Source of the DNA: a virus
Direction: 5' to 3' (one strand)
Length of the DNA: 26,738 nt
Virus record (IMG/VR): IMGVR_UViG_3300006916_000313
Location: 1 to 26,738 of that record
Numbering within the stretch: the first letter of the stretch is position 1; every line of letters starts with the position of its first letter. Position numbers and translations under genes: made by a program. This document shows positions 3,731 to 24,973 of the stretch, piece by piece. The notes below the pieces were generated by a model, which did not search any database, was not told where the DNA came from, and saw only the letters and a program-made list of their open reading frames with translations.

Positions 3731-3738
3731 TATAAATA
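3731..3738 (+). promoter_or_regulatory. T4-type late promoter, start codon at predicted +1
   Basis: A perfect TATAAATA octamer, followed by five bases (AAAAT) and then the ATG at 3744. In T4 the octamer spans -13 to -6, so transcription would begin on the A of this ATG. No ribosome binding site is present upstream. Confidence 0.75.
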
Positions 3739-4661: not shown

Positions 4662-5093
4662 ATGATCAGAGTTAATATTAAAGGCAGAATTGCTAAAAAG
4701 AAAAAAATTATAGAGTATATTGAAACAGCTCTAATAGGAATGATGCCCAGATTAAGACGAACTGTGGACATTGACTTAACAGTCTTAACAGAGTGTGATG
4801 AAAAAAATTATGCACTTTGTTGGGGCGATAAAAACGAAGTAGAAATTGAGTTAGCCAGACAAAGTGGCAGAAAAAAGTTTACATTAGACGAAATGATGTT
4901 AAACTTGGCTCATGAACTTGTTCATGCTAAACAATTTTTAAAAGGTGAACTTCATCCTACACTTAGTAAATGGAAGAAGTTTAAAAAAGATTATGCTAAC
5001 ACTCCCTATTTCAAACAACCCTGGGAGAAAGAAGCATATTTAATGGAAGATAACATTTTTAAAACATACTGGATAGATGGCAAAAATATATAA
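4662..5093 (+). CDS. Putative zinc metallopeptidase (HELVH, SprT-like)
   Basis: The product is 143 residues with the zincin motif HELVH at residues 84-88, in which two histidines would bind zinc and the glutamate would activate water. A downstream WEKEAY segment could supply the third ligand. This matches the small SprT-like metalloproteins common in phages. The substrate is unknown. The N-terminus is a basic helix, and there is no signal peptide, so action in the host cytoplasm is likely. The late octamer at 4639 and AGGA at 4651 support the start. The next small gene overlaps its last 17 bases. Confidence 0.7.
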   Translation: MIRVNIKGRIAKKKKIIEYIETALIGMMPRLRRTVDIDLTVLTECDEKNYALCWGDKNEVEIELARQSGRKKFTLDEMMLNLAHELVHAKQFLKGELHPTLSKWKKFKKDYANTPYFKQPWEKEAYLMEDNIFKTYWIDGKNI

Positions 5094-5280: not shown

Positions 5281-5304
5281 CTCCGCAGTAGAAATACTGC
5301 GGAG
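5281..5304 (+). terminator. Perfect 10-bp hairpin with GAAA tetraloop
   Basis: CTCCGCAGTA (5281-5290) pairs perfectly with TACTGCGGAG (5295-5304) around GAAA, a stable GNRA tetraloop. No T tract follows (AACTTG), so it is a poor intrinsic terminator and may instead be a 3'-end protecting or processing structure for the preceding transcript. It ends 6 bases before the late promoter at 5310. Confidence 0.6.
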
Positions 5305-5309
5305 AACTT

Positions 5310-5317
5310 GATAAATA
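5310..5317 (+). promoter_or_regulatory. T4-type late promoter, start codon at predicted +1
   Basis: GATAAATA followed by five bases (TAGAT) and the ATG at 5323. By T4 geometry +1 falls on this ATG. There is no ribosome binding site; the only purine-rich sequence, GGAG, belongs to the hairpin 18 bases upstream. Confidence 0.72.
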
Positions 5318-5322
5318 TAGAT

Positions 5323-5913
5323 ATGAGTACTTATAATCCTTATAATAACTACATGACAACTGATGTAATTACTACATCACTCACAGAAGAATGGGTATGC
5401 GAGTTAGTAGAGCCCAAACATCAAGCACTTCATACTAGAGCAAATATTGATCCTTTTGGAACAGATATAGATTGGCAAGAAAAGGAAAAAGAAATGCTAC
5501 AACTGATGCATAATAAGTTTGGTATAGGTTTAGCCGCTCCACAGATAGGTTACAGTTATAATATGTTTGTTATGAATCATGAGCATTTAGGAGACATAGG
5601 TGTATATAGGCCTGAGATATTAGAGTACAGTGAAGAAACTTGTAGATATGAAGAAGGTTGTTTAAGTTTCCCTATGTTATATTTAGATGTAATCAGACCA
5701 GAAAAAATCAAAGTGAAATATTATAAATCAGATGGTGAAACACAGGTGGAGACCTGGATGGACGGCAGAGATGCCAGATGTTTCCAACATGAATTTGATC
5801 ATTTATATGGTGATTTATTTATAGACAAAGTGAGCGATTTAAAATTACAAAGAGCATTTAAAAAGAGAGAGAAGTTTTTTAAGAAATTAGAAAGACAAAT
5901 TAAAAATGCTTGA
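5323..5913 (+). CDS. def: Peptide deformylase
   Basis: This enzyme removes the N-formyl group from nascent proteins. All three family motifs are present: GIGLAAPQ (residues 67-74), EGCLS (111-115, metal ligand C113) and QHEFDH (155-160, ligands H156 and H160, catalytic E157). At 196 residues it is longer than most phage deformylases because of an N-terminal extension of about 25 residues. I set the start at 5323 because the late octamer at 5310-5317 predicts +1 there; a TTG at 5308 would lie before the transcript start. Marine phage deformylases are thought to sustain protein processing during infection. The next gene overlaps the last 8 bases. Confidence 0.93.
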   Translation: MSTYNPYNNYMTTDVITTSLTEEWVCELVEPKHQALHTRANIDPFGTDIDWQEKEKEMLQLMHNKFGIGLAAPQIGYSYNMFVMNHEHLGDIGVYRPEILEYSEETCRYEEGCLSFPMLYLDVIRPEKIKVKYYKSDGETQVETWMDGRDARCFQHEFDHLYGDLFIDKVSDLKLQRAFKKREKFFKKLERQIKNA

Positions 5914-6754
5914 TTATCCTTTTTGGGTAAATGATTTTGACAGAGTTAAAGATCACAGACTTACCCACCCAGAAGTAGCCAAAATATTTGAACAACCTGT
6001 AGCATTTTGGTATGGTGCTAAACGTAATAAAAATGCCTACGCAAAATTAAAAAAAAGCCTAAAAAGACTATTTAATCGTACAGCACCCAAACTACCTTAC
6101 TTTGTAATATACAACTTACCTAACAGAGACTTAGGGCATTACAGCAAAGGAGGAGCCTCTGACGCAACTGAATACTTATTGTTCTTACAAGAGTTTTGTG
6201 CTGGTATTAAAGGGCATAAACCAATAGTTATATTTGAACCAGATGCATTACCACATACTACTTTAATGGATAAAAAAGATGCTGAGTATCGTGTAAATCT
6301 TATTAAGGCAGGACTAGATATTATGGCAGAAGAGAGTGATGCTTATGTATATGTAGACATAGGTCACAGTAATTGGCTTAGTCCAGAACAAGCATCAGAG
6401 CTAATTTCTAGTGTATCTAACGCAGGTATAAGAGGGTTTAGTGTTAATGTAAGTAATTACAGAAGCACAGAAGAGAGCATGAAATGGGCTTTAAAGGTGT
6501 GTGAATACAACGAAGACTGGCATTTTATTATAGACACCAGCCGTAATGGCAATGGTCCACATGGTAATGACTGGTGCAATCCTCCTGGTAGACATGTAGG
6601 TAAAGTTCCTAGTTGCGATACAGGAGAGCCTAAATGCGATGCCTTTTTATGGGTAAAGATACCAGGTGAGTCTGACGGAAAAGGTAATGGTGGTCCTAGA
6701 GCTGGTAGGTTTTGGCCTGAAATGGGTGCAGAGTTAGTAAAAGATATTAACTAA
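5906..6754 (+). CDS. Glycoside hydrolase family 6 (cellulase-type) enzyme
   Basis: The order of conserved blocks is that of GH6 endoglucanases and cellobiohydrolases: YNLPNRD (compare YDLPDRD), VIFEPDAL, YVDIGHSNWL, GFSVNVSNY, FIIDTSRNG, NDWCNPPG and LWVKIPGESDG. The GH6 acidic residues appear as D75 (in RD), D113 (in EPD) and D257 (in ESDG), so inverting cleavage of beta-1,4-glucan-type linkages looks intact. The product is 282 residues, essentially one catalytic domain, with no signal peptide and no carbohydrate-binding module. Without export it would act in the cytoplasm, be released at lysis, or be carried on the virion. It is coupled to deformylase by an 8-base overlap and converges on the next gene, overlapping it by 8 bases. 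Confidence 0.85.
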   Translation: MLDYPFWVNDFDRVKDHRLTHPEVAKIFEQPVAFWYGAKRNKNAYAKLKKSLKRLFNRTAPKLPYFVIYNLPNRDLGHYSKGGASDATEYLLFLQEFCAGIKGHKPIVIFEPDALPHTTLMDKKDAEYRVNLIKAGLDIMAEESDAYVYVDIGHSNWLSPEQASELISSVSNAGIRGFSVNVSNYRSTEESMKWALKVCEYNEDWHFIIDTSRNGNGPHGNDWCNPPGRHVGKVPSCDTGEPKCDAFLWVKIPGESDGKGNGGPRAGRFWPEMGAELVKDIN

Positions 6755-7121
6755 CGCCACTAGGGTCGTCATTTGACATCATGTCGTCACTTGGAATAGG
6801 ATCTGATTCAGGTTCTTTAAGTTCTGCTTCTAGATAATTTTTAGCACCTTCCAAATACTCATGAGCTTTAACCACTTTGGCTTGCCACCAGTGTGGGAAA
6901 TCTGAGTCAGGCAAGTCTTTTAACATTTTGTGAAGTTCTATAGCATTTTTACCAATAAGGTATAATTCTTTAGATATCATGCCTCTTTCGTTATCTATAT
7001 GACCAACAGCAACTTTTTTAGTTTCGCCTTCACCGGTGTCTGATCTGTAATCTACTCCAGGCTCACCGTCACCTTCTGATACTATACCTGCTAATTGTTG
7101 TAATCTTGCTATTTCGTTCAT
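6747..7121 (-). CDS. Small acidic protein starting with an LAGI peptide
   Basis: The product is 124 residues and begins MNEIARLQQLAGIVSEG, the same kind of peptide found twice in the neighbouring 762-residue protein. The middle is helical (ELHKMLKDLPD, HEYLEGAKNYLEAEL) and the tail is acidic (about residues 105-124, rich in D, S and P). I chose the ATG at 7121, one base after the upstream stop, over an ATG at 7136 that would lie inside the upstream gene. No family is recognised. It is the last gene of the minus-strand late block and its stop overlaps the convergent GH6 gene. Confidence 0.7.
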   Translation of the reverse strand: MNEIARLQQLAGIVSEGDGEPGVDYRSDTGEGETKKVAVGHIDNERGMISKELYLIGKNAIELHKMLKDLPDSDFPHWWQAKVVKAHEYLEGAKNYLEAELKEPESDPIPSDDMMSNDDPSGVS

Positions 7122-7122
7122 C

Positions 7123-9411
7123 TTAACTACATCCACATCCTGAACATGCTTTAAGCACTATTCTTTCCTTTCCACACTTAGGGCAAGGCTCTGTTTGTTC
7201 TTTTTCTTTAATACCTGCTAGGTCTCGCATTCTTTGAATATCTTCGTCTACTTCAGGTTCACCATGGTCTTTCCAATCTGCATTGTCTACGGTATCTTCA
7301 GCATGTCTTTGAAGTATTTCATCTCTGTCATCATCCATGTGCAAGTTTAGGTCTCTGCTAATCTCACTCATTTCTTGATCAAGTTCTTCCATTGATAAAC
7401 CACATGCTTCTGCGTATGCTTCTTCGCCACCTTTTGCATAAGCATCCATTAATTCATTGTATGCCTCTTCTTCACGACTTTGTTCTGCATCAATGTCAAA
7501 ACTTTCATCATACTCTTTAGATGCCATTACAGGATTTTGTTGTCCCATTTCATTATCAAATTGTACCATAATTTGATGAAGTTTATCTGCATATTTTCTA
7601 TGGCTCATCATGTCTTTAACTTTAGTCATTAAAGGTTGCATTACTTTTTGTAAGTAAGGAGCCATATTGCTATCACCTGCGGCAGTATCTAATGCTTTTT
7701 GCATAATTGATGCGGCATCTTTACCACCAATGTCTTGTCTCATTCTGTTATAAACAGATTGGTCTACTTTAGCATCTTCTTCATCTTCAGGATCTAGCAT
7801 ACCAGTGATTCCAGTTTCGGCATCTCTTGGATCTTTAGGATCTTGCTCTGCTTCTGCTTCACTCATTTCATCTGCAGGCTCTGGAGCATTAGTTTCTGAA
7901 TCTATTTTGGCTTTCATTTTTTCTAAACCAAATTTTTCAATCATCTCTATGTAACTTTGAATAACATCATCGGCCATCATTTCATCAGCATCGTCTGTGA
8001 TATTTGTTTTCATGCCATTTAAAAGTTCCAAGCATTCTTTTTCATCATCACAATCCATTATACCTTGTTCAGCATCAGTCATTGCTATATCAAAAGCATT
8101 ACCGCCTTCTGCAATTTCTTTTTCGCCTAGTGTTTTAAGATATTTTCTATATGCATGTTCACTTGCTTCTTCGTCTTTCCAAGTATCGCCACCTTCTTTT
8201 TTATTTTCATGTCTCCAATCTGATAAACTTAGAGGTTCGCCATTATCATATACAATCATGCCTTTAGGACCTTTTTTAGTTCCTTCTTCAACGCCGTAGT
8301 CTGATTTTATATCTGATAAGTCTAAACTTTCTTTTTCAAAATCATCTTCTTCAGGTTCATATTTACTATCATCACCTGCTTCTAAATCCATATCTGATAT
8401 AGCCTTTTTAACAAGTTTTAAGGTAAATTGTTTGTCCTCATCCTTCATTCCTGCTAAACCATTTTCAGGCATTTTGTCTATCAATTTGTTTAATTTTTCA
8501 CTTATTGATAGCCCATTTTCGTCTGGCATTATTCTTTCATTAATTTCTGCTAGTAGGTTTGCAGGAGATTTAAGTAATGCTTGGACAAATTGTTCTTTTT
8601 TAACTTCAGGGTCATTTGCATCTGATCCTTCTGGGAATCTGTTTGCTATACTCATCGTTGCTGAGCTTTTTGTGACTGGAGCAAATTTAATATCCTTAAT
8701 ACTTAAAGGAGTATCAAACTCTACTGGAGCATCTTCGCGGATATCTAATCCTGCTAATTTTAAAATTGTGTTTAAATCTTCGTTCATTTTTTCACCTACT
8801 ATATTTTTATAAACTAATTCAAAAACAGATTCGTTATATTGTTTGAAGTATCTGTTAAATACTTTTTTAGCACTCTCTTTATCAGATGCGTCTAAAAACT
8901 GTTTTCTGAATGCACTAGCACTCAATATTTCGTTTTTTTCGTCGTCTCGTTCTGTTCCAACGACCTGTATGTATCCTCTGTCCATCATGGATTTTGGATT
9001 TGTTCTATATGTATTTATCTTCTGAAAGTAATATGGATCACCGTTTGGTTTAATACTTAGCCCAGTTTTCTTATCCATGTTATTAAACTTAAATCTGGGG
9101 TCATTTTCCATATCTTTTTCACCCACAGCAAAGAAAACTGCTGTATTATCTGGGTCTTCTATGTAAGGTGCTAAATCATCAGGGTGATAATTACGTCTTA
9201 CCTGTAACATTCTGTTTGGGTCTACACCCTGAGCGGTTGCAATCAGTTGTTTTTCTTTGAAGTTAAATGGTGATTTACCAGGTTCTGTTTTGTCTGATGA
9301 GGTTATATAAACATCAGCATCAGGATTATCTGCTACAAGTTTGTTAAAAACTGTGGCATGATGAGCCAGCATAGGCTGGAAACGTCCTGGATATATAATA
9401 ACCTTCTTCAT
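7123..9411 (-). CDS. Nucleotidyltransferase-domain fusion protein with LAG[IL] peptides and zinc ribbon
   Basis: Residues 1-200 form a cytidylyltransferase/NMN adenylyltransferase-type domain, with YPGRFQPM at 7-14 and SASAFR at 164-169 (compare ISSTxxR). The family HxGH is altered to LAHH (15-18): the second histidine remains, the first does not. After residue 208 the sequence restarts as MNEDLNTILKLAGL (209-222), like the start of the adjacent gene. A very long acidic helical region of over 500 residues follows, then DEDIQRMRDLAGI (722-734) and a zinc ribbon with C743, C746, C756, C759 and C761. The GATAAATA octamer lies 6 bases before the ATG with no ribosome binding site. Late expression suggests a structural or packaged role; nucleotide transfer is unproven. 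Confidence 0.75.
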   Translation of the reverse strand: MKKVIIYPGRFQPMLAHHATVFNKLVADNPDADVYITSSDKTEPGKSPFNFKEKQLIATAQGVDPNRMLQVRRNYHPDDLAPYIEDPDNTAVFFAVGEKDMENDPRFKFNNMDKKTGLSIKPNGDPYYFQKINTYRTNPKSMMDRGYIQVVGTERDDEKNEILSASAFRKQFLDASDKESAKKVFNRYFKQYNESVFELVYKNIVGEKMNEDLNTILKLAGLDIREDAPVEFDTPLSIKDIKFAPVTKSSATMSIANRFPEGSDANDPEVKKEQFVQALLKSPANLLAEINERIMPDENGLSISEKLNKLIDKMPENGLAGMKDEDKQFTLKLVKKAISDMDLEAGDDSKYEPEEDDFEKESLDLSDIKSDYGVEEGTKKGPKGMIVYDNGEPLSLSDWRHENKKEGGDTWKDEEASEHAYRKYLKTLGEKEIAEGGNAFDIAMTDAEQGIMDCDDEKECLELLNGMKTNITDDADEMMADDVIQSYIEMIEKFGLEKMKAKIDSETNAPEPADEMSEAEAEQDPKDPRDAETGITGMLDPEDEEDAKVDQSVYNRMRQDIGGKDAASIMQKALDTAAGDSNMAPYLQKVMQPLMTKVKDMMSHRKYADKLHQIMVQFDNEMGQQNPVMASKEYDESFDIDAEQSREEEAYNELMDAYAKGGEEAYAEACGLSMEELDQEMSEISRDLNLHMDDDRDEILQRHAEDTVDNADWKDHGEPEVDEDIQRMRDLAGIKEKEQTEPCPKCGKERIVLKACSGCGCS

Positions 9412-19798: not shown

Positions 19799-20725
19799 AT
19801 GAAAAACATATTGCTACTAGGCGGCATAGGTTATGTCGGTTCTAAATTCAACAAAGTCTTTAAAGACAAATACAATATAACTAATGTAGACATAAATTGG
19901 TTTGGAAATCCTATTGATGTAGAGTATGAATTTTTTGATTACAATGATGTCACAGACAGATATATCAAAACATTTGATGTAGTAATATTGTTAGCAGGTC
20001 ATAGTAGTGTCAAGATGTGTGACGATAAATTTGGCAGTTGGAATAACAATGTTAGAAACTTTGCTAACCTGCTTTCAAAATTAAATGGTACAAAATTTAT
20101 ATATGCCAGTAGCAGTAGTGTATATGGAAATACTACTGAAGATGAAATAGACGAAGAGTATTTGGACTTCTCTCCTATAAATTTTTATGATATGGCAAAA
20201 CTTCATATAGACCAATTAGCAAAATTAAGTGACACAGAATATTATGGATTAAGATTTGGTACAGTAAATGGTCCTGCTCCACACATAAGAACTGATGTAA
20301 TGATTAATGCGATGACTAATACAGCAAAAACAAAAGGCGAGATACATTTGTTTAATGCTGACACTAAAAGAAGTATTTTAGGCATCAATGATCTTATGAG
20401 AGCCTTTAAAGCAATAATAGAATCAGAACAGAACAACAAAGGAATTTTCAACTTGGCAAGTTTTACAAGTACATCAGGAGAGATTGCTGAAGTAGTAGGC
20501 AGAGTAACCAAAGTTAAAGTTATTAATAAAGATACACCAGAAGTTATCACAAACGAAAAATTAGAGAAAAAGAATTATAACTTTGGTGTAACTACAACAA
20601 AATTTGAAAAAACATTTAATTTTGAATTTAAAGACACACTAGAGTCCTTAGTACACGAAACTGTAGGTAAATTTGACGGTTGTGAATTAAAAACTAACAG
20701 ATCAGAACCTATAGAGTACGAATAA
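19799..20725 (+). CDS. NAD-dependent sugar epimerase/dehydratase (extended SDR)
   Basis: The product is 308 residues with a GGIGYVGS cofactor loop (residues 8-15), ASSSSVYG carrying the catalytic serine and YDMAK giving the Tyr/Lys pair. These are hallmarks of nucleotide-sugar epimerases, dehydratases and reductases. The exact reaction cannot be read from sequence. Beside an RfbH-like enzyme it could be the reductase that completes a CDP-3,6-dideoxyhexose, or a 4,6-dehydratase or epimerase. It follows uvsE by four bases without a clear ribosome binding site, so it may be expressed both early with uvsE and as the lead gene of the sugar cassette. Confidence 0.88.
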   Translation: MKNILLLGGIGYVGSKFNKVFKDKYNITNVDINWFGNPIDVEYEFFDYNDVTDRYIKTFDVVILLAGHSSVKMCDDKFGSWNNNVRNFANLLSKLNGTKFIYASSSSVYGNTTEDEIDEEYLDFSPINFYDMAKLHIDQLAKLSDTEYYGLRFGTVNGPAPHIRTDVMINAMTNTAKTKGEIHLFNADTKRSILGINDLMRAFKAIIESEQNNKGIFNLASFTSTSGEIAEVVGRVTKVKVINKDTPEVITNEKLEKKNYNFGVTTTKFEKTFNFEFKDTLESLVHETVGKFDGCELKTNRSEPIEYE

Positions 20726-20732
20726 AAAGGCA

Positions 20733-20740
20733 TATAAATA
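20733..20740 (+). promoter_or_regulatory. T4-type late promoter, start codon at predicted +1
   Basis: A perfect TATAAATA followed by five bases (TCAAC) and the ATG at 20746, exactly the T4 +1 position. The only purine-rich sequence upstream (AAGG) is 17 bases from the ATG and outside the predicted transcript. Confidence 0.75.
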
Positions 20741-20745
20741 TCAAC

Positions 20746-22089
20746 ATGGACGACAAACTCAATAATATTCTCGAGTCTATAAAAGAATACATAGACGAAA
20801 AACAAGCAAATAAAACCTGGGAGCCTGGCAAGGACTTTGTAAACTATGCTGGTCCTTTGTTTAGCAGTGATGAATATGTCAGTGCCGCAGAAACATTACT
20901 GGACGGTTGGTTAGTGATGGGAGATAAGAGTATTAAGTTTGAAAGAAAGTTTCCAAAGTATTACGGTAAAAAACACGGAGTACTTACAAATTCTGGTAGT
21001 AGTGCTAACTTATTGATGATGGCATCTTTAACCAGCAAAAGAGGACATAACTTTGGTAAAGGCACAAAAGTTTTAATGCCTATAGCAGGTTTCCCTACAA
21101 CACTAAATCCAACATTACAGGTAGGATTTGAACCTGTATTTGTAGACATAGAATTAGACACACTAAATTTAGATTTAGATCAATGCGAAGAGATATTAAA
21201 AAACAATCCTGACATAAAAGTAATTACATTTGCTCATGTATTAGGTAATCCACCAAACATGGACCAACTAATGGAATTAGTAGACAAATACAATTTAGTA
21301 TTACTGGAAGATTGTTGTGATGCTTTGGGTAGTACATACAAAGACAAACCATTAGGTAGTTTTGGAGAAATGGCTAGTTGTAGTTTTTATCCAGCACATC
21401 ATATGACAATGGGAGAGGGTGGTTTTGTTGCTTGTAATACATATGAGCAAGAAGTAATTACTAGAAGTTTTAGAGAATGGGGGAGAGGTTGTTATTGCGT
21501 AGGCCCAGAAGCAAATAAACTTAAAAACGGTACTTGTAAAAAACGTTTTAGTTGCTGGATACCCACAATGCCTGACCAAACATTTGATCATAAATTTGTT
21601 TATGACGAAATTGGTTACAATTTAAAACCAATAGATATCCAGAGTGCTATGGGCCTTGAGCAACTTAAGAAACTAGATGAGATACATGCTCTGAGAAGAA
21701 GAAACTATAAATTACTTTTTGAAATTTATGAGAAGTATGAGAAATATTTTATACTGCCTAGACCCAGAGAACATTCAGACCCAAGTTGGTTTGCTTTCCC
21801 ACTTACTATTAGAAAAGATGCGCCTTTTACTAGAACACAATATGTAGACTTTTTAGAAGATAATAAAATACAAACAAGACCTTATTTTGCTGGTAATATT
21901 ATGTTACAACCAGCATATAGTCATTTAATGGATCCACAACAAGCAAAAGATAATTTCCCTAATGCTACCTTTACACTAACAAATACTTTCTTCCATGGAG
22001 CAAGTGCTGTTATAACACCAGAGCAAATAGCATGGATTAAAAAGGTTGCCGATGATTTTTTATCACAATATGAAAACAGAATTGTATGA
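20746..22089 (+). CDS. rfbH: RfbH-like PLP/[2Fe-2S] sugar 3-dehydratase
   Basis: The product is 447 residues of the DegT/DnrJ/EryC1 fold, but the PLP lysine is replaced by histidine: SFYPAHHMTMGEGG has H218 where aminotransferases have Lys. This is the hallmark of RfbH/E1, which removes the C3 hydroxyl of CDP-4-keto-6-deoxyglucose, and of the related ColD. RfbH/E1 also has an iron-sulfur motif recalled as C-x57-C-x-C-x7-C. Here C191, C249 and C251 keep the x57 and x1 spacing, and C264 follows after x12. That favours RfbH over ColD. The E1 partner reductase and the CDP-glucose 4,6-dehydratase are not in the window. The late octamer at 20733 makes it a late gene. Confidence 0.88.
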   Translation: MDDKLNNILESIKEYIDEKQANKTWEPGKDFVNYAGPLFSSDEYVSAAETLLDGWLVMGDKSIKFERKFPKYYGKKHGVLTNSGSSANLLMMASLTSKRGHNFGKGTKVLMPIAGFPTTLNPTLQVGFEPVFVDIELDTLNLDLDQCEEILKNNPDIKVITFAHVLGNPPNMDQLMELVDKYNLVLLEDCCDALGSTYKDKPLGSFGEMASCSFYPAHHMTMGEGGFVACNTYEQEVITRSFREWGRGCYCVGPEANKLKNGTCKKRFSCWIPTMPDQTFDHKFVYDEIGYNLKPIDIQSAMGLEQLKKLDEIHALRRRNYKLLFEIYEKYEKYFILPRPREHSDPSWFAFPLTIRKDAPFTRTQYVDFLEDNKIQTRPYFAGNIMLQPAYSHLMDPQQAKDNFPNATFTLTNTFFHGASAVITPEQIAWIKKVADDFLSQYENRIV

Positions 22090-22814
22090 AGAACTATTTT
22101 ATCCAAACTTTATGTAAAGTAAAAAAAGAAGACTACGATCCCAACCAACAAGTACCTATTAATGAACCTGATACTTACCCAATGTATCAGGAATTACAAA
22201 ATTTATCCTATTCAACTTTCAAACATTTTATGGAAGGAGATTGGGAATATGTCTTGTTAGAGGAAGAAGTAACTCATGTGTTTGAAGTATTCCAACAAAA
22301 CTTCAGAAAGATATATGATTTATGGAACAAGGAACCTTGTAATATTTTGTTTACAGGTTTAGATACAACAATGATTCAACCTACAGAAGTTTTTGGAAAA
22401 TATGACAAATTTACTATGTTTAATCATAGTGATCCAAAAAATACTCCTAAATTTGAAAATAATTTTAACTGTGACGTAAGATACTACCCAGCCACAATGG
22501 ATAAGAAATGGATGGACTATACTATGGAAAAAATAGATAGCCTTAAAGTATGGTCAGATGAGCAGGATATCTACAATGATATGTTATGGGGGCAAGAGGT
22601 TAAATATACAGATGTAATAGATCCAAAAATGGCATATCAAGGACATATGATACCTAATTTGGAAACAAATATAGACAGAGGTAATCACTGGAACGGTATA
22701 GATATCAATGATGCTCACATTGTACATTGGCATAGCAGTAGAGGTATTGCTAATAGAGTAGAACTATTCAAACATATATGTGAATGGTTAGAGGTTCCGG
22801 TAGAAAATGAATAA
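22086..22814 (+). CDS. Probable glycosyltransferase (GT-A-like)
   Basis: The product is 242 residues. ILFTGLDTTMIQPTEVF (87-103) places a conserved Asp where GT-A enzymes bind nucleotide sugar and metal. SDEQDIYND (157-165) resembles the DQ-x-x-N acceptor-side block, and VHWHSSRG near the end resembles the HxH-type ligand. There is no classical DxD, so the assignment is by pattern only. It overlaps RfbH in an ATGA junction and the sulfotransferase in TAATG, so it probably transfers the sugar made by this cassette. The acceptor (phage virion protein or host surface glycan) is unknown. Confidence 0.6.
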   Translation: MKNYFIQTLCKVKKEDYDPNQQVPINEPDTYPMYQELQNLSYSTFKHFMEGDWEYVLLEEEVTHVFEVFQQNFRKIYDLWNKEPCNILFTGLDTTMIQPTEVFGKYDKFTMFNHSDPKNTPKFENNFNCDVRYYPATMDKKWMDYTMEKIDSLKVWSDEQDIYNDMLWGQEVKYTDVIDPKMAYQGHMIPNLETNIDRGNHWNGIDINDAHIVHWHSSRGIANRVELFKHICEWLEVPVENE

Positions 22815-23482
22815 TGATATATCTACACATACCAAAAACAGGTGGAACGTCACTTAGAAATGCCTTTATGTTGGCACAAACACCTGTGCCATTTGTAGTA
22901 GCACCCAGTCACGCAATCACTTTACTTAATATAGAAACATTTTGTATATTCAGTATTCGCGACCCTTTGGATAGATTTTGTAGTGGGTTTTGGGAAAGAG
23001 CAACAAATCACAAACGCAAACAGATCAATAAAGGTGTAAACATTTTATTTCAGGGAGGAGGCTATCAGGATTTAGCCAAAGGAGAACAAAACATATTCAG
23101 GGACTTTCCAACGCCCAATCATTTCTTAACAGCTCTTAGGCAAGGTACAGCAGATAGAGATGAACATGAGTTTGGAAAAACACCTCTTAATCTTTTATTA
23201 TCACCATTAACATATTGGGTAGGAAAATTACCAACATACAAAAAACATGAAGTAAAAGTAAAAAATGTTTATGAATTAAATTCACTGTCAAGGATAATGC
23301 ATGAGCAGGGTATTAATTTACCTCAAGATCCTTTTTTAAAAAGAAGCAGAAAGCAATTTCCAGAAATAAATCAAAGTTATAGTATTTCAAAAGAGAATAA
23401 AGAGTGGTTTGAACAAGAGCTCAGAATTGATGACTATAAACTTATAGAACACATAAGGAATCAGTCATACTACATTCCCTAA
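22814..23482 (+). CDS. Sulfotransferase (Sulfotransfer_2-type)
   Basis: The product is 222 residues. HIPKTGGTSLR (residues 5-15) is the 5'-phosphosulfate-binding loop of the carbohydrate sulfotransferase family, and SIRDPLDRFCSG (47-58) is the 3'-phosphate block with R49 and S57. It would transfer sulfate from PAPS, probably to a sugar given its coupling to a glycosyltransferase-like and an RfbH-like gene. There is no signal anchor, unlike the Golgi enzymes of eukaryotes, so it acts in the host cytoplasm. It is the last gene of the cassette and is distinct in sequence from the other sulfotransferase-like gene at 10482-11177. Confidence 0.85.
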   Translation: MIYLHIPKTGGTSLRNAFMLAQTPVPFVVAPSHAITLLNIETFCIFSIRDPLDRFCSGFWERATNHKRKQINKGVNILFQGGGYQDLAKGEQNIFRDFPTPNHFLTALRQGTADRDEHEFGKTPLNLLLSPLTYWVGKLPTYKKHEVKVKNVYELNSLSRIMHEQGINLPQDPFLKRSRKQFPEINQSYSISKENKEWFEQELRIDDYKLIEHIRNQSYYIP

Positions 23483-23703: not shown

Positions 23704-23934
23704 TTACTTCTTATTGAAGATGTGGTATAGTATCCAAACACCTATTAATCCTAATAAGCCTTCGTTACTTAATCCTCCTAAGATAGCCATGATGTTATCA
23801 ACAACTTGGAAATCTCCGAGGAATGGTACTGCTCCACCAAATAATACTTCAAGTACTACTCCAAGAGCAATAACACTGATACCAACTTCTGTTAGTTGTT
23901 TGGCCCATCCGCCAACACTTTTAAGAATTTCCAT
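23704..23934 (-). CDS. Small hydrophobic membrane protein
   Basis: The product is 76 residues from the ATG at 23934, chosen because a near-perfect AAAGGAGG stands six bases upstream. Two or three hydrophobic helices are visible: about 16-34 (VGISVIALGVVLEVLF), a Gly-rich middle (NIMAILGGLSNEG) and about 58-72 (LLGLIGVWILYHIF), ending in KK. I recall similar short proteins in marine T4-like phages, without known role; a holin-like function is possible but unsupported. It is monocistronic, with its own terminator, on the strand opposite to its neighbours. The strong ribosome binding site suggests high expression. Confidence 0.75.
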   Translation of the reverse strand: MEILKSVGGWAKQLTEVGISVIALGVVLEVLFGGAVPFLGDFQVVDNIMAILGGLSNEGLLGLIGVWILYHIFNKK

Positions 23935-24062
23935 ATCAACCTCCTTTGAATTTACCAAAATTAGCAAATTCAGATAATATTTAAGTGCCAGTAATCACTT
24001 ACTTAACAACTCACTTAATGTTAAATACAGTTATTAATATAGAAAAACTAGAGATAAAACAC

Positions 24063-24356
24063 ATGTTATTAGATAAACCTATAAAGAAAAACGATATAAT
24101 TTCACTAAAATTGCTGACTGGCGAAGAAGTCATAGCACAATTTCAGGAAGAAAAAGATAATAATCTTATTGTATCCAAAGCAAGTATTGTGGCGGCAAAC
24201 CCTCAAGGTGGACTAGGATTAGTACCCTGGATGATGAGCTCTATGCCAGATAAAATCAGCATAAATAAAGATACAGTAGTTACATTTGGTCAAACAGCAG
24301 AAGCCATCGCAGACAAATTCATAGAAGCGACTACAAACATTACACTGGCAAAATAA
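24063..24356 (+). CDS. Sm/Hfq-like small phage protein
   Basis: The product is 97 residues. DIISLKLLTGEEVIAQFQEE followed by further strands (NLIVSKASIVAANPQ, and later ISINKDTVVTF) gives the strand order of the Sm-like small beta barrel, with a C-terminal helix. I recall equivalent Sm-like proteins in marine T4-like phages, but no demonstrated function; RNA binding is inferred from the fold. The start is uncertain: ATGs at 24018 and 24063 are both in frame and neither has a good ribosome binding site. I chose 24063 because KLLTGEE then falls near the N-terminus as usual. Confidence 0.6.
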   Translation: MLLDKPIKKNDIISLKLLTGEEVIAQFQEEKDNNLIVSKASIVAANPQGGLGLVPWMMSSMPDKISINKDTVVTFGQTAEAIADKFIEATTNITLAK

Positions 24357-24371
24357 CACACATTTCTTTAC

Positions 24372-24399
24372 TTGACAAAATATAGTATTTTGTTATAAT
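24372..24399 (+). promoter_or_regulatory. Sigma70-type promoter with perfect extended -10
   Basis: TTGACA (24372-24377), a 16-bp spacer, then TGTTATAAT with TATAAT at 24394-24399. The predicted +1 is near 24406, leaving a leader of about 13 bases before the cell-wall hydrolase gene. It has the same architecture as the promoters at 332 and 925. Confidence 0.85.
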
Positions 24400-24418
24400 A
24401 TATGGACATTTAGAGATT

Positions 24419-24973
24419 ATGATGTTAAAACGTGGAATATTTCTAACCTTATTTTCTGTTAGTTTACTATCAGAAGATGTTGATGCTAATATCCAAACAG
24501 TAGATTTATCTATGACAGATGATACTATGTGTTTAGCTCTTAACATGTACCATGAAGCCAGAAGTGAAAGCACAGCAGGTATGTGGGCAGTTAGTGACGT
24601 CGTAATTAACAGAGTAAAAAGCTCATCATTTCCAAATACTATCTGCGAAGTTATAAAACAAGGACCTACAAGAGAGAGTTGGAAGACTTCTAGATTCCCA
24701 GATTTACCAGACTCAGAAAGAATTTTTTATCCTATCAAAAGGCAATGTCAATTCAGTTGGTATTGTGATGGAATAAGTGATATGCCTACAGAACTTTTTA
24801 GTTGGTACAGAGCATTAGAACTTGCCACACTTATGTTAAAGTTTGACAGAGGTATAGGTATCACAGATGGTGCTGACCATTATCATGCAGATTATATTAA
24901 TCCAAAATGGAATAATAGTATGTTGCTCACAGCCCAAATAGATAACCACGTTTTTTATAAAGATATCAGATAA
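24419..24973 (+). CDS. SleB/CwlJ-type cell wall hydrolase with signal peptide
   Basis: The product is 184 residues. The N-terminus MMLKRGIFLTLFSVSLLSEDVDA is a plausible signal peptide with cleavage near residue 23. The Hydrolase_2 domain follows, with CLALNMYHEARSES carrying the presumed catalytic E46, then VVINRV, CQFSWYCDG and GADHYHADYINPKW, all family hallmarks. It should cleave peptidoglycan in the periplasm. The host-type promoter at 24372-24399 suggests expression well before lysis, so wall remodelling or superinfection control is as likely as lysis. The start could be the first or second Met. It is separate from the T4-type lysozyme at 13299-13766. Confidence 0.88.
   Translation: MMLKRGIFLTLFSVSLLSEDVDANIQTVDLSMTDDTMCLALNMYHEARSESTAGMWAVSDVVINRVKSSSFPNTICEVIKQGPTRESWKTSRFPDLPDSERIFYPIKRQCQFSWYCDGISDMPTELFSWYRALELATLMLKFDRGIGITDGADHYHADYINPKWNNSMLLTAQIDNHVFYKDIR

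Follow-up and report, generated by a model that had tools for sequence, protein, structure and literature searches.

Glycoside hydrolase family 6 (GH6) enzymes of cellulose-degrading bacteria and fungi are secreted, disulphide-bonded proteins. The window analysed here is a 26,738-base stretch of a virus record, and it encodes a GH6 protein beside a peptide deformylase. Why would a phage carry such an enzyme, and where and when would the enzyme act? The answer depends on whether the gene encodes an intact member of the family, whether it belongs to phages or was borrowed from a host, and what its neighbours say about its expression. A preliminary description of the locus, made from the sequence, had proposed a late-expressed glucan-degrading enzyme or a depolymerase of the virion.

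The open reading frame at 5906-6754 on the plus strand runs from an ATG to a TAA and encodes the compact 282-residue catalytic domain described earlier. The protein matches Pfam PF01341 (Glyco_hydro_6) with an E value of 9.7e-50 and 170.5 bits, well above the curated cut-off of 27 bits, over positions 15-298 of the 305 in the profile, and its assignment to the family is upheld. No PHROGs family matches the window protein, and the BFVD structure library returned no GH6 match, its top hit being an aldo/keto reductase at a TM score of 0.33. When solved structures were searched by sequence, GH6 endoglucanases ranked first, with 6fao at 8.6e-52 and T. fusca Cel6A (1tml) at 1.2e-48. An AlphaFold2 model based on 48 aligned sequences has a mean pLDDT of 89 and a pTM of 0.90, with residues 78-80 in an active-site loop below 50. 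VIA-align comparison after Foldseek gave Z scores of 33.3 with Mycobacterium tuberculosis Cel6 (1up0), 32.3 with 6fao and 31.7 with 1tml; the first and last of these share the whole-length fold with the phage protein at 32-33% identity. All 50 entries listed, with Z between 25.5 and 33.3, are GH6 enzymes or GH6-derived scaffolds, in agreement with the GH6 barrel expected from structure prediction.

The same comparison bears on the type of enzyme. Bacterial endoglucanases reach Z scores of 31-33 as against 28.5 or less for cellobiohydrolases, and the phage domain has 282 residues compared with about 360 for cellobiohydrolase domains. Because the best structural matches are endoglucanases, the active-site tunnel anticipated in the preliminary description is unlikely, and an endo-type enzyme with an open cleft, a feature read from the matches and not from the model, is more likely. 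Window residues D75, D113 and D257 align to D79, D117 and D265 of T. fusca Cel6A, and Y69, D151, K251 and E255 align to its Y73, D156, K259 and E263, so that the two enzymes have their catalytic residues in common over the aligned T. fusca segment. The equivalents of all seven are kept in 46/46 viral rows of the residue alignment, and the motifs EPD, RD, DT[SA]RNG, WCNP and ESDG occur in all 80 loci examined (the best 80 of 126 IMG/VR relatives). The window gene is a complete GH6 domain with intact catalytic aspartates, as had been claimed, and it carries no cellulose-binding module.

Table 1. Features of the GH6 locus, in window coordinates.
Feature	Position	Strand	Evidence or conservation
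Small metallopeptidase-like protein, upstream, same direction as GH6	4662..5093	+	Weak PF14891 match below cut-off; in 25/80 loci
Strong hairpin (stem of 10 bp, loop GAAA) immediately upstream of the promoter-like motif	5281..5304	+	Fold -18.9 kcal/mol, z -7.6
GATAAATA, resembling a T4 late promoter, 13 nt ahead of the deformylase ATG	5310..5317	+	Position before start codon
Peptide deformylase, likely ATG 5323 (ORF listing gives TTG 5308)	5323..5913	+	PF01327, E 3.9e-35
GH6 catalytic domain (282 aa) lacking signal peptide and binding module	5906..6754	+	PF01341, AlphaFold2 model, residue alignment
Convergent neighbour, conserved	6747..7136	-	In 65/80 loci, at ≤2.5 kb in 47; no Pfam match
Large protein with cytidyltransferase-like N-terminus, conserved neighbour	7123..9411	-	phrog_395, E 4.2e-6; in 58/80 loci

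Relatives of the window gene are found in many uncultivated viruses. A single-sequence scan of IMG/VR returned 33 relatives among 49 pattern matches, with identities of 59-100%, and an alignment scan returned 126 among 129. The best 80 of these 126 were retained, and all 80 loci encode compact proteins of 272-318 aa. Among 84,980 bacterial and archaeal genomes, 17 pattern matches yielded 5 relatives at 31-41% identity. The 50,697 INPHARED records gave three matches at 31-35%, namely Streptomyces phage Gilgamesh twice and one fecal scaffold, and none of the isolated T4-like phage records there has a GH6 of this branch. A viral scan with cellular-type GH6 recovered 3 relatives among 42 pattern matches. 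Maximum-likelihood analysis of 74 rows placed the 46 viral ones in a single group on one side of a branch with 100/100 support and a stem of 0.83, and the 26 cellular rows on the other side together with Gilgamesh and the fecal scaffold; the tree is unrooted and drew a program warning about long branches meeting. Before the tree and the residue counts, L101 and a single ORF from each of L117 and L122 were removed as duplicates, L103 and L105-L108 were removed as weak or cellobiohydrolase-type rows (E >1e-35), and L100 stood in for L082. The viral and cellular counts include neither Gilgamesh nor the fecal scaffold. Judged from its sequence, the window GH6 belongs to a coherent phage branch and is not a stray host gene.

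This placement weighs on one reading of the gene, in which it is an auxiliary metabolic gene of recent origin from a cellulolytic host and feeds the cell with cellulose sugar. The accessible text of a study of Mariana Trench sediments reads viral GH6 as an aid in algal cellulose degradation (PMC8725595), and that of an Aral Sea basin study groups GH6 with polysaccharide breakdown (PMC9948696). A recent host origin would nest the viral sequences among those of hosts. Instead, the 46 viral rows stand apart, in a cellular sample from two phyla only, those of Kribbella (10/149 genomes positive) and of a Myxococcales assembly (5/140). The viral branch is long and single, its nearest cellular relatives are no more than 31-41% identical, the gene is syntenic in dozens of viruses, and a protein with no signal peptide would hardly gain access to cellulose outside the cell before lysis. 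We consider this reading very improbable. The earlier view that GH6 is unexpected in a marine T4-like phage needs qualifying: the family is not wholly new to viruses, given Gilgamesh and the viral GH6 listed in the portions of these two papers available. The viral gene is under strong purifying selection. Nei-Gojobori dN/dS is about 0.03-0.1 in the unsaturated viral pairs, which include the window and L002 (dN 0.048, dS 0.487), L003 and L004 (0.009, 0.364), L027 and L032 (0.049, 0.547), and L079 and L081 (0.039, 0.205); the remaining pairs are saturated or near-identical.

The viral branch has lost features that go with secretion. Cysteine occupies the T. fusca C80 position in 0/46 viral rows as against 28/28 cellular rows, and the C125 position in 0/46 as against 26/28; we take the C80-C125 pairing to be the first GH6 disulphide. 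In the second pair, the first cysteine is present in all 46 viral rows and its partner in 11, and the window protein lacks the partner. No viral GH6 has a hydrophobic N-terminus: the maximum over a 12-residue Kyte-Doolittle window is 1.22, compared with more than 2 in most cellular rows, and the earlier observation that an export signal is missing holds. Because the first disulphide is lost and the N-terminus is not hydrophobic, the viral enzymes should fold in the cytoplasm and should not use Sec export. The GH6 proteins of L008, L036 and L037 have an additional C-terminal tail of about 35 residues with CxxC-type cysteines.

Other substitutions lie closer to the substrate. A lysine (K81) stands at the T. 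fusca Ser85 position in 45/46 viral rows and in 1/28 cellular rows, the latter having mostly Ala, Gly or Ser. The serine at this position in GH6 enzymes has a role in holding the catalytic water, and the solved structures of other family members include mutants of the equivalent serine (entry titles D226A-S232A and D170N/S176). H117 is found in 41/46 viral rows, and both residues are branch-specific and located in active-site loops. A new cysteine at 244 is invariant in 24/24 rows of the first viral scan. Its invariance rests on these rows because the patterns of the second scan contained C244, together with C224, whereas those of the first had no C244; the cysteine losses and K81 were part of no scan pattern. 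Such changes could mark a phage-specific subfamily, present in at least two T4-like lineages and refitted to the cytoplasm, in which the K81/H117/C244 signature has shifted the substrate away from plain cellulose, for example to a host surface beta-glucan or an intracellular glycan. We hold this reading to be rather doubtful.

The same residues could also suit an enzyme whose target during infection is a non-cellulose host or phage glycan in the cytoplasm. Such an internal role would agree with the lack of an export route, the lost first disulphide, the loop residues K81 and H117, and the replication genes that adjoin GH6 in one lineage (see below). The other substrate-site residues are nevertheless those of cellulases, and we know of no cytoplasmic beta-1,4-glucan that is a phage target, which makes an internal role unlikely.

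The gene neighbourhood indicates when the enzyme may be made. The start of GH6 overlaps the end of the deformylase gene by 8 nt (5906-5913). Upstream of GH6, 59/80 loci have a deformylase homologue, always within 2.5 kb, and the gap between the two is -23 to +8 nt in 43 of those 59 (43/80 overall), which bears out the coupling noted earlier. In a scan with the deformylase, the first six loci listed (L208-L213, 47-62% identity) carry GH6 directly downstream, and the other 74 kept do not (0/74). This support is mostly not independent, because five of the six contigs had already been found through GH6.

The motif of the late-type promoter assigned to this gene pair was also recovered. NATAAATA followed by 5-6 nt and an ATG is found at the deformylase start in 23/58 loci (19 distinct sequences), compared with 1.2% of random 120-nt stretches, and is absent at that spacing, 13-14 nt before the ATG, in the other 35/58. 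Among 876 distinct ORFs from L001-L070, NATAAATA lies 13 nt before the first ATG in 95 genes and 14 nt before it in 20, and any other offset accounts for at most 9 genes each. The window sites are at 3731, 5310, 20733, 9425(-) and 12937(-). Only the position before start codons is unusual, since the plain TATAAATA count in the window, 6 against 4.6 expected, is not above chance. In T4, the late promoter motif spans -13 to -6 relative to the site where transcription begins. If NATAAATA sits as in T4, late mRNAs would start at the start codon and be leaderless. NATAAATA is the late promoter of cyanophage S-PM2 (PMC2984593), and a similar motif is described for jumbo phage CBB (PMC5259590), according to the accessible parts of both papers. 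The hairpin that precedes the motif is possibly the end of the upstream transcript, and CTGCGGAG pieces resembling the hairpin sequence precede the deformylase in L001, L002, L006 and L007.

Several observations concern the wider surroundings. A short LxxLAG[IL]-like motif was seen by eye in several unrelated phage proteins, in most cases close to one end of the chain, including those of both minus-strand neighbours in Table 1 and of L087 and L092. The carriers include a scaffold-like protein adjoining the capsid gene, and the motif might be a tag that directs proteins to the head or binds them to the scaffold. At 19799-23482(+), genes for an epimerase, a DegT aminotransferase and a sulfotransferase are clustered, which suggests a phage-made sugar or surface modification; no homologues of this cluster were found in the 80 GH6 loci, in stretches of up to 8 kb from GH6. 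At 23704-24973, about 17 kb from GH6, a small hydrophobic protein judged holin-like by eye lies near a cell wall hydrolase (PF07486), a possible lysis pair.

The identity of the carrier phages comes from the relatives of the window. Terminase PF03237 was found in 6/20 relatives' records and the gp23 capsid protein PF07068 in 2/20. The capsid protein of G003, a 339,794-base record, is 70% identical to that of PA5oct-type Pseudomonas jumbo phages. The terminase of G008 is 57% identical to that of the same phages, and its locus (L039) has full deformylase-GH6 synteny. Neither PF03237 nor gp23 was found among the listed ORFs of the window or in the record holding L001, whose GH6 is 100% identical to that of the window. 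As terminase and capsid are known from syntenic relatives and absent from the window, we infer by synteny that the window phage is a T4-like, PA5oct-like jumbo phage. The earlier assignment to a T4-like phage is thus borne out for the syntenic relatives, but these are jumbo phages of the PA5oct/Phosso kind and not ordinary marine T4-likes. An ordinary cyanophage was considered and set aside, as psbA (PF00124) occurs in 0/20 records, a weak indication in records that are fragments. GH6 was found in 0/16 terminase-relative records, chosen for length from 80 relatives, one of 250,519 bases and the other 15 being fragments of 29.7-89.4 kb.

A second T4-like lineage consists of eleven loci (L071-L081) at 42-44% identity. 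In L071 and L079, GH6 is immediately followed by genes for a gp32-like single-strand DNA-binding protein and for a UvsX-like recombinase, with a thymidylate-synthase-like protein and others upstream. No tail gene adjoining GH6 was recognised in these two loci; L079 also encodes a 1,074-residue protein with no PHROG match about 5 kb upstream of GH6.

These settings bear on the depolymerase reading, in which GH6 forms part of the virion and breaches a layer of surface glucan during entry. In Gilgamesh, the GH6 domain belongs to a minor-tail gene cluster and has a long N-terminal part, and the virion of a jumbo Bacillus phage holds a free glycoside hydrolase, GH25 (PMC4870245, accessible portion). 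Cytoplasmic folding and late expression are compatible with such a role, and the missing disulphides would also fit a virion component or a purely internal enzyme. Against it, all 80 viral proteins, at 272-318 aa, have no added tail domain, neither the deformylase nor the gp32/UvsX setting is a tail cluster, and the viral group is apart from Gilgamesh in the tree. With neither a virion-binding domain nor a tail-cluster location in the loci read, the virion role proposed in the preliminary description gains no positive support, and we regard it as improbable.

The reading that we favour, tentatively and at somewhat short of even confidence, is a late endo-acting beta-1,4-glucanase of a phage-only GH6 branch that is freed at lysis and clears a cellulose-like matrix, its activity, substrate, release, benefit and host all being putative. 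GH6 would be co-transcribed with the deformylase from the late-type promoter, as the motif implies, would fold without the customary first disulphide in the reducing environment of the host cytoplasm, and would accumulate there. Cell lysis would then set it free. In the matrix that surrounds the host cells, the freed enzyme may cut cellulose or a comparable beta-1,4-glucan, which could let progeny leave and reach new hosts. Release at burst is the simplest reading because a late, cytoplasm-folded soluble enzyme cannot reach an outer polymer before lysis, and action at the end of infection would fit the late motif. The setting in L071 and L079 counts against this reading, since it is one of replication with no obvious late or lysis module, as do the lack of a cellulose-binding module and the 35/58 relatives that have no late motif at the stated spacing.

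Bacterial cellulose has been linked to phage infection in other systems. Erwinia amylovora phage S6 encodes two cellulases of other families that are used against bacterial cellulose, one of them verified on a model substrate; these proteins, gp094 and gp095, differ from the window enzyme in being multidomain GH48 and GH5 enzymes (PMC9544554, accessible text). A cellulose-linked gene affects infection of Vibrio alginolyticus by phage BX-1, and in the accessible text the authors report no direct proof that cellulose is the receptor (PMC11792527). Within GH6, T. fusca Cel6A retains the disulphide cysteines, whereas the phage enzyme lacks the first pair and has K81, H117 and C244. Gilgamesh gp72, annotated as a glycoside hydrolase, likewise contains a phage GH6 domain, at 30.8% identity to the window, but it falls on the cellular side of the tree. 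The open-access literature, as far as its text was accessible, held no account of a distinct phage GH6 branch, of its first-disulphide loss or of a deformylase pairing in jumbo phages, and no text on GH6 in jumbo phages, a marine jumbo-phage paper (PMC9123017) included. Within that literature, the phage branch, the disulphide loss and the deformylase pairing appear to be new here, and GH6 in viral contigs was already known.

The existence of this branch suggests that a beta-1,4-glucan envelops some environmental bacteria and is important to their phages. The GH6 branch may thereby help to point out which hosts these jumbo phages infect, and the window enzyme is a candidate cytoplasm-folding cellulase for practical use.
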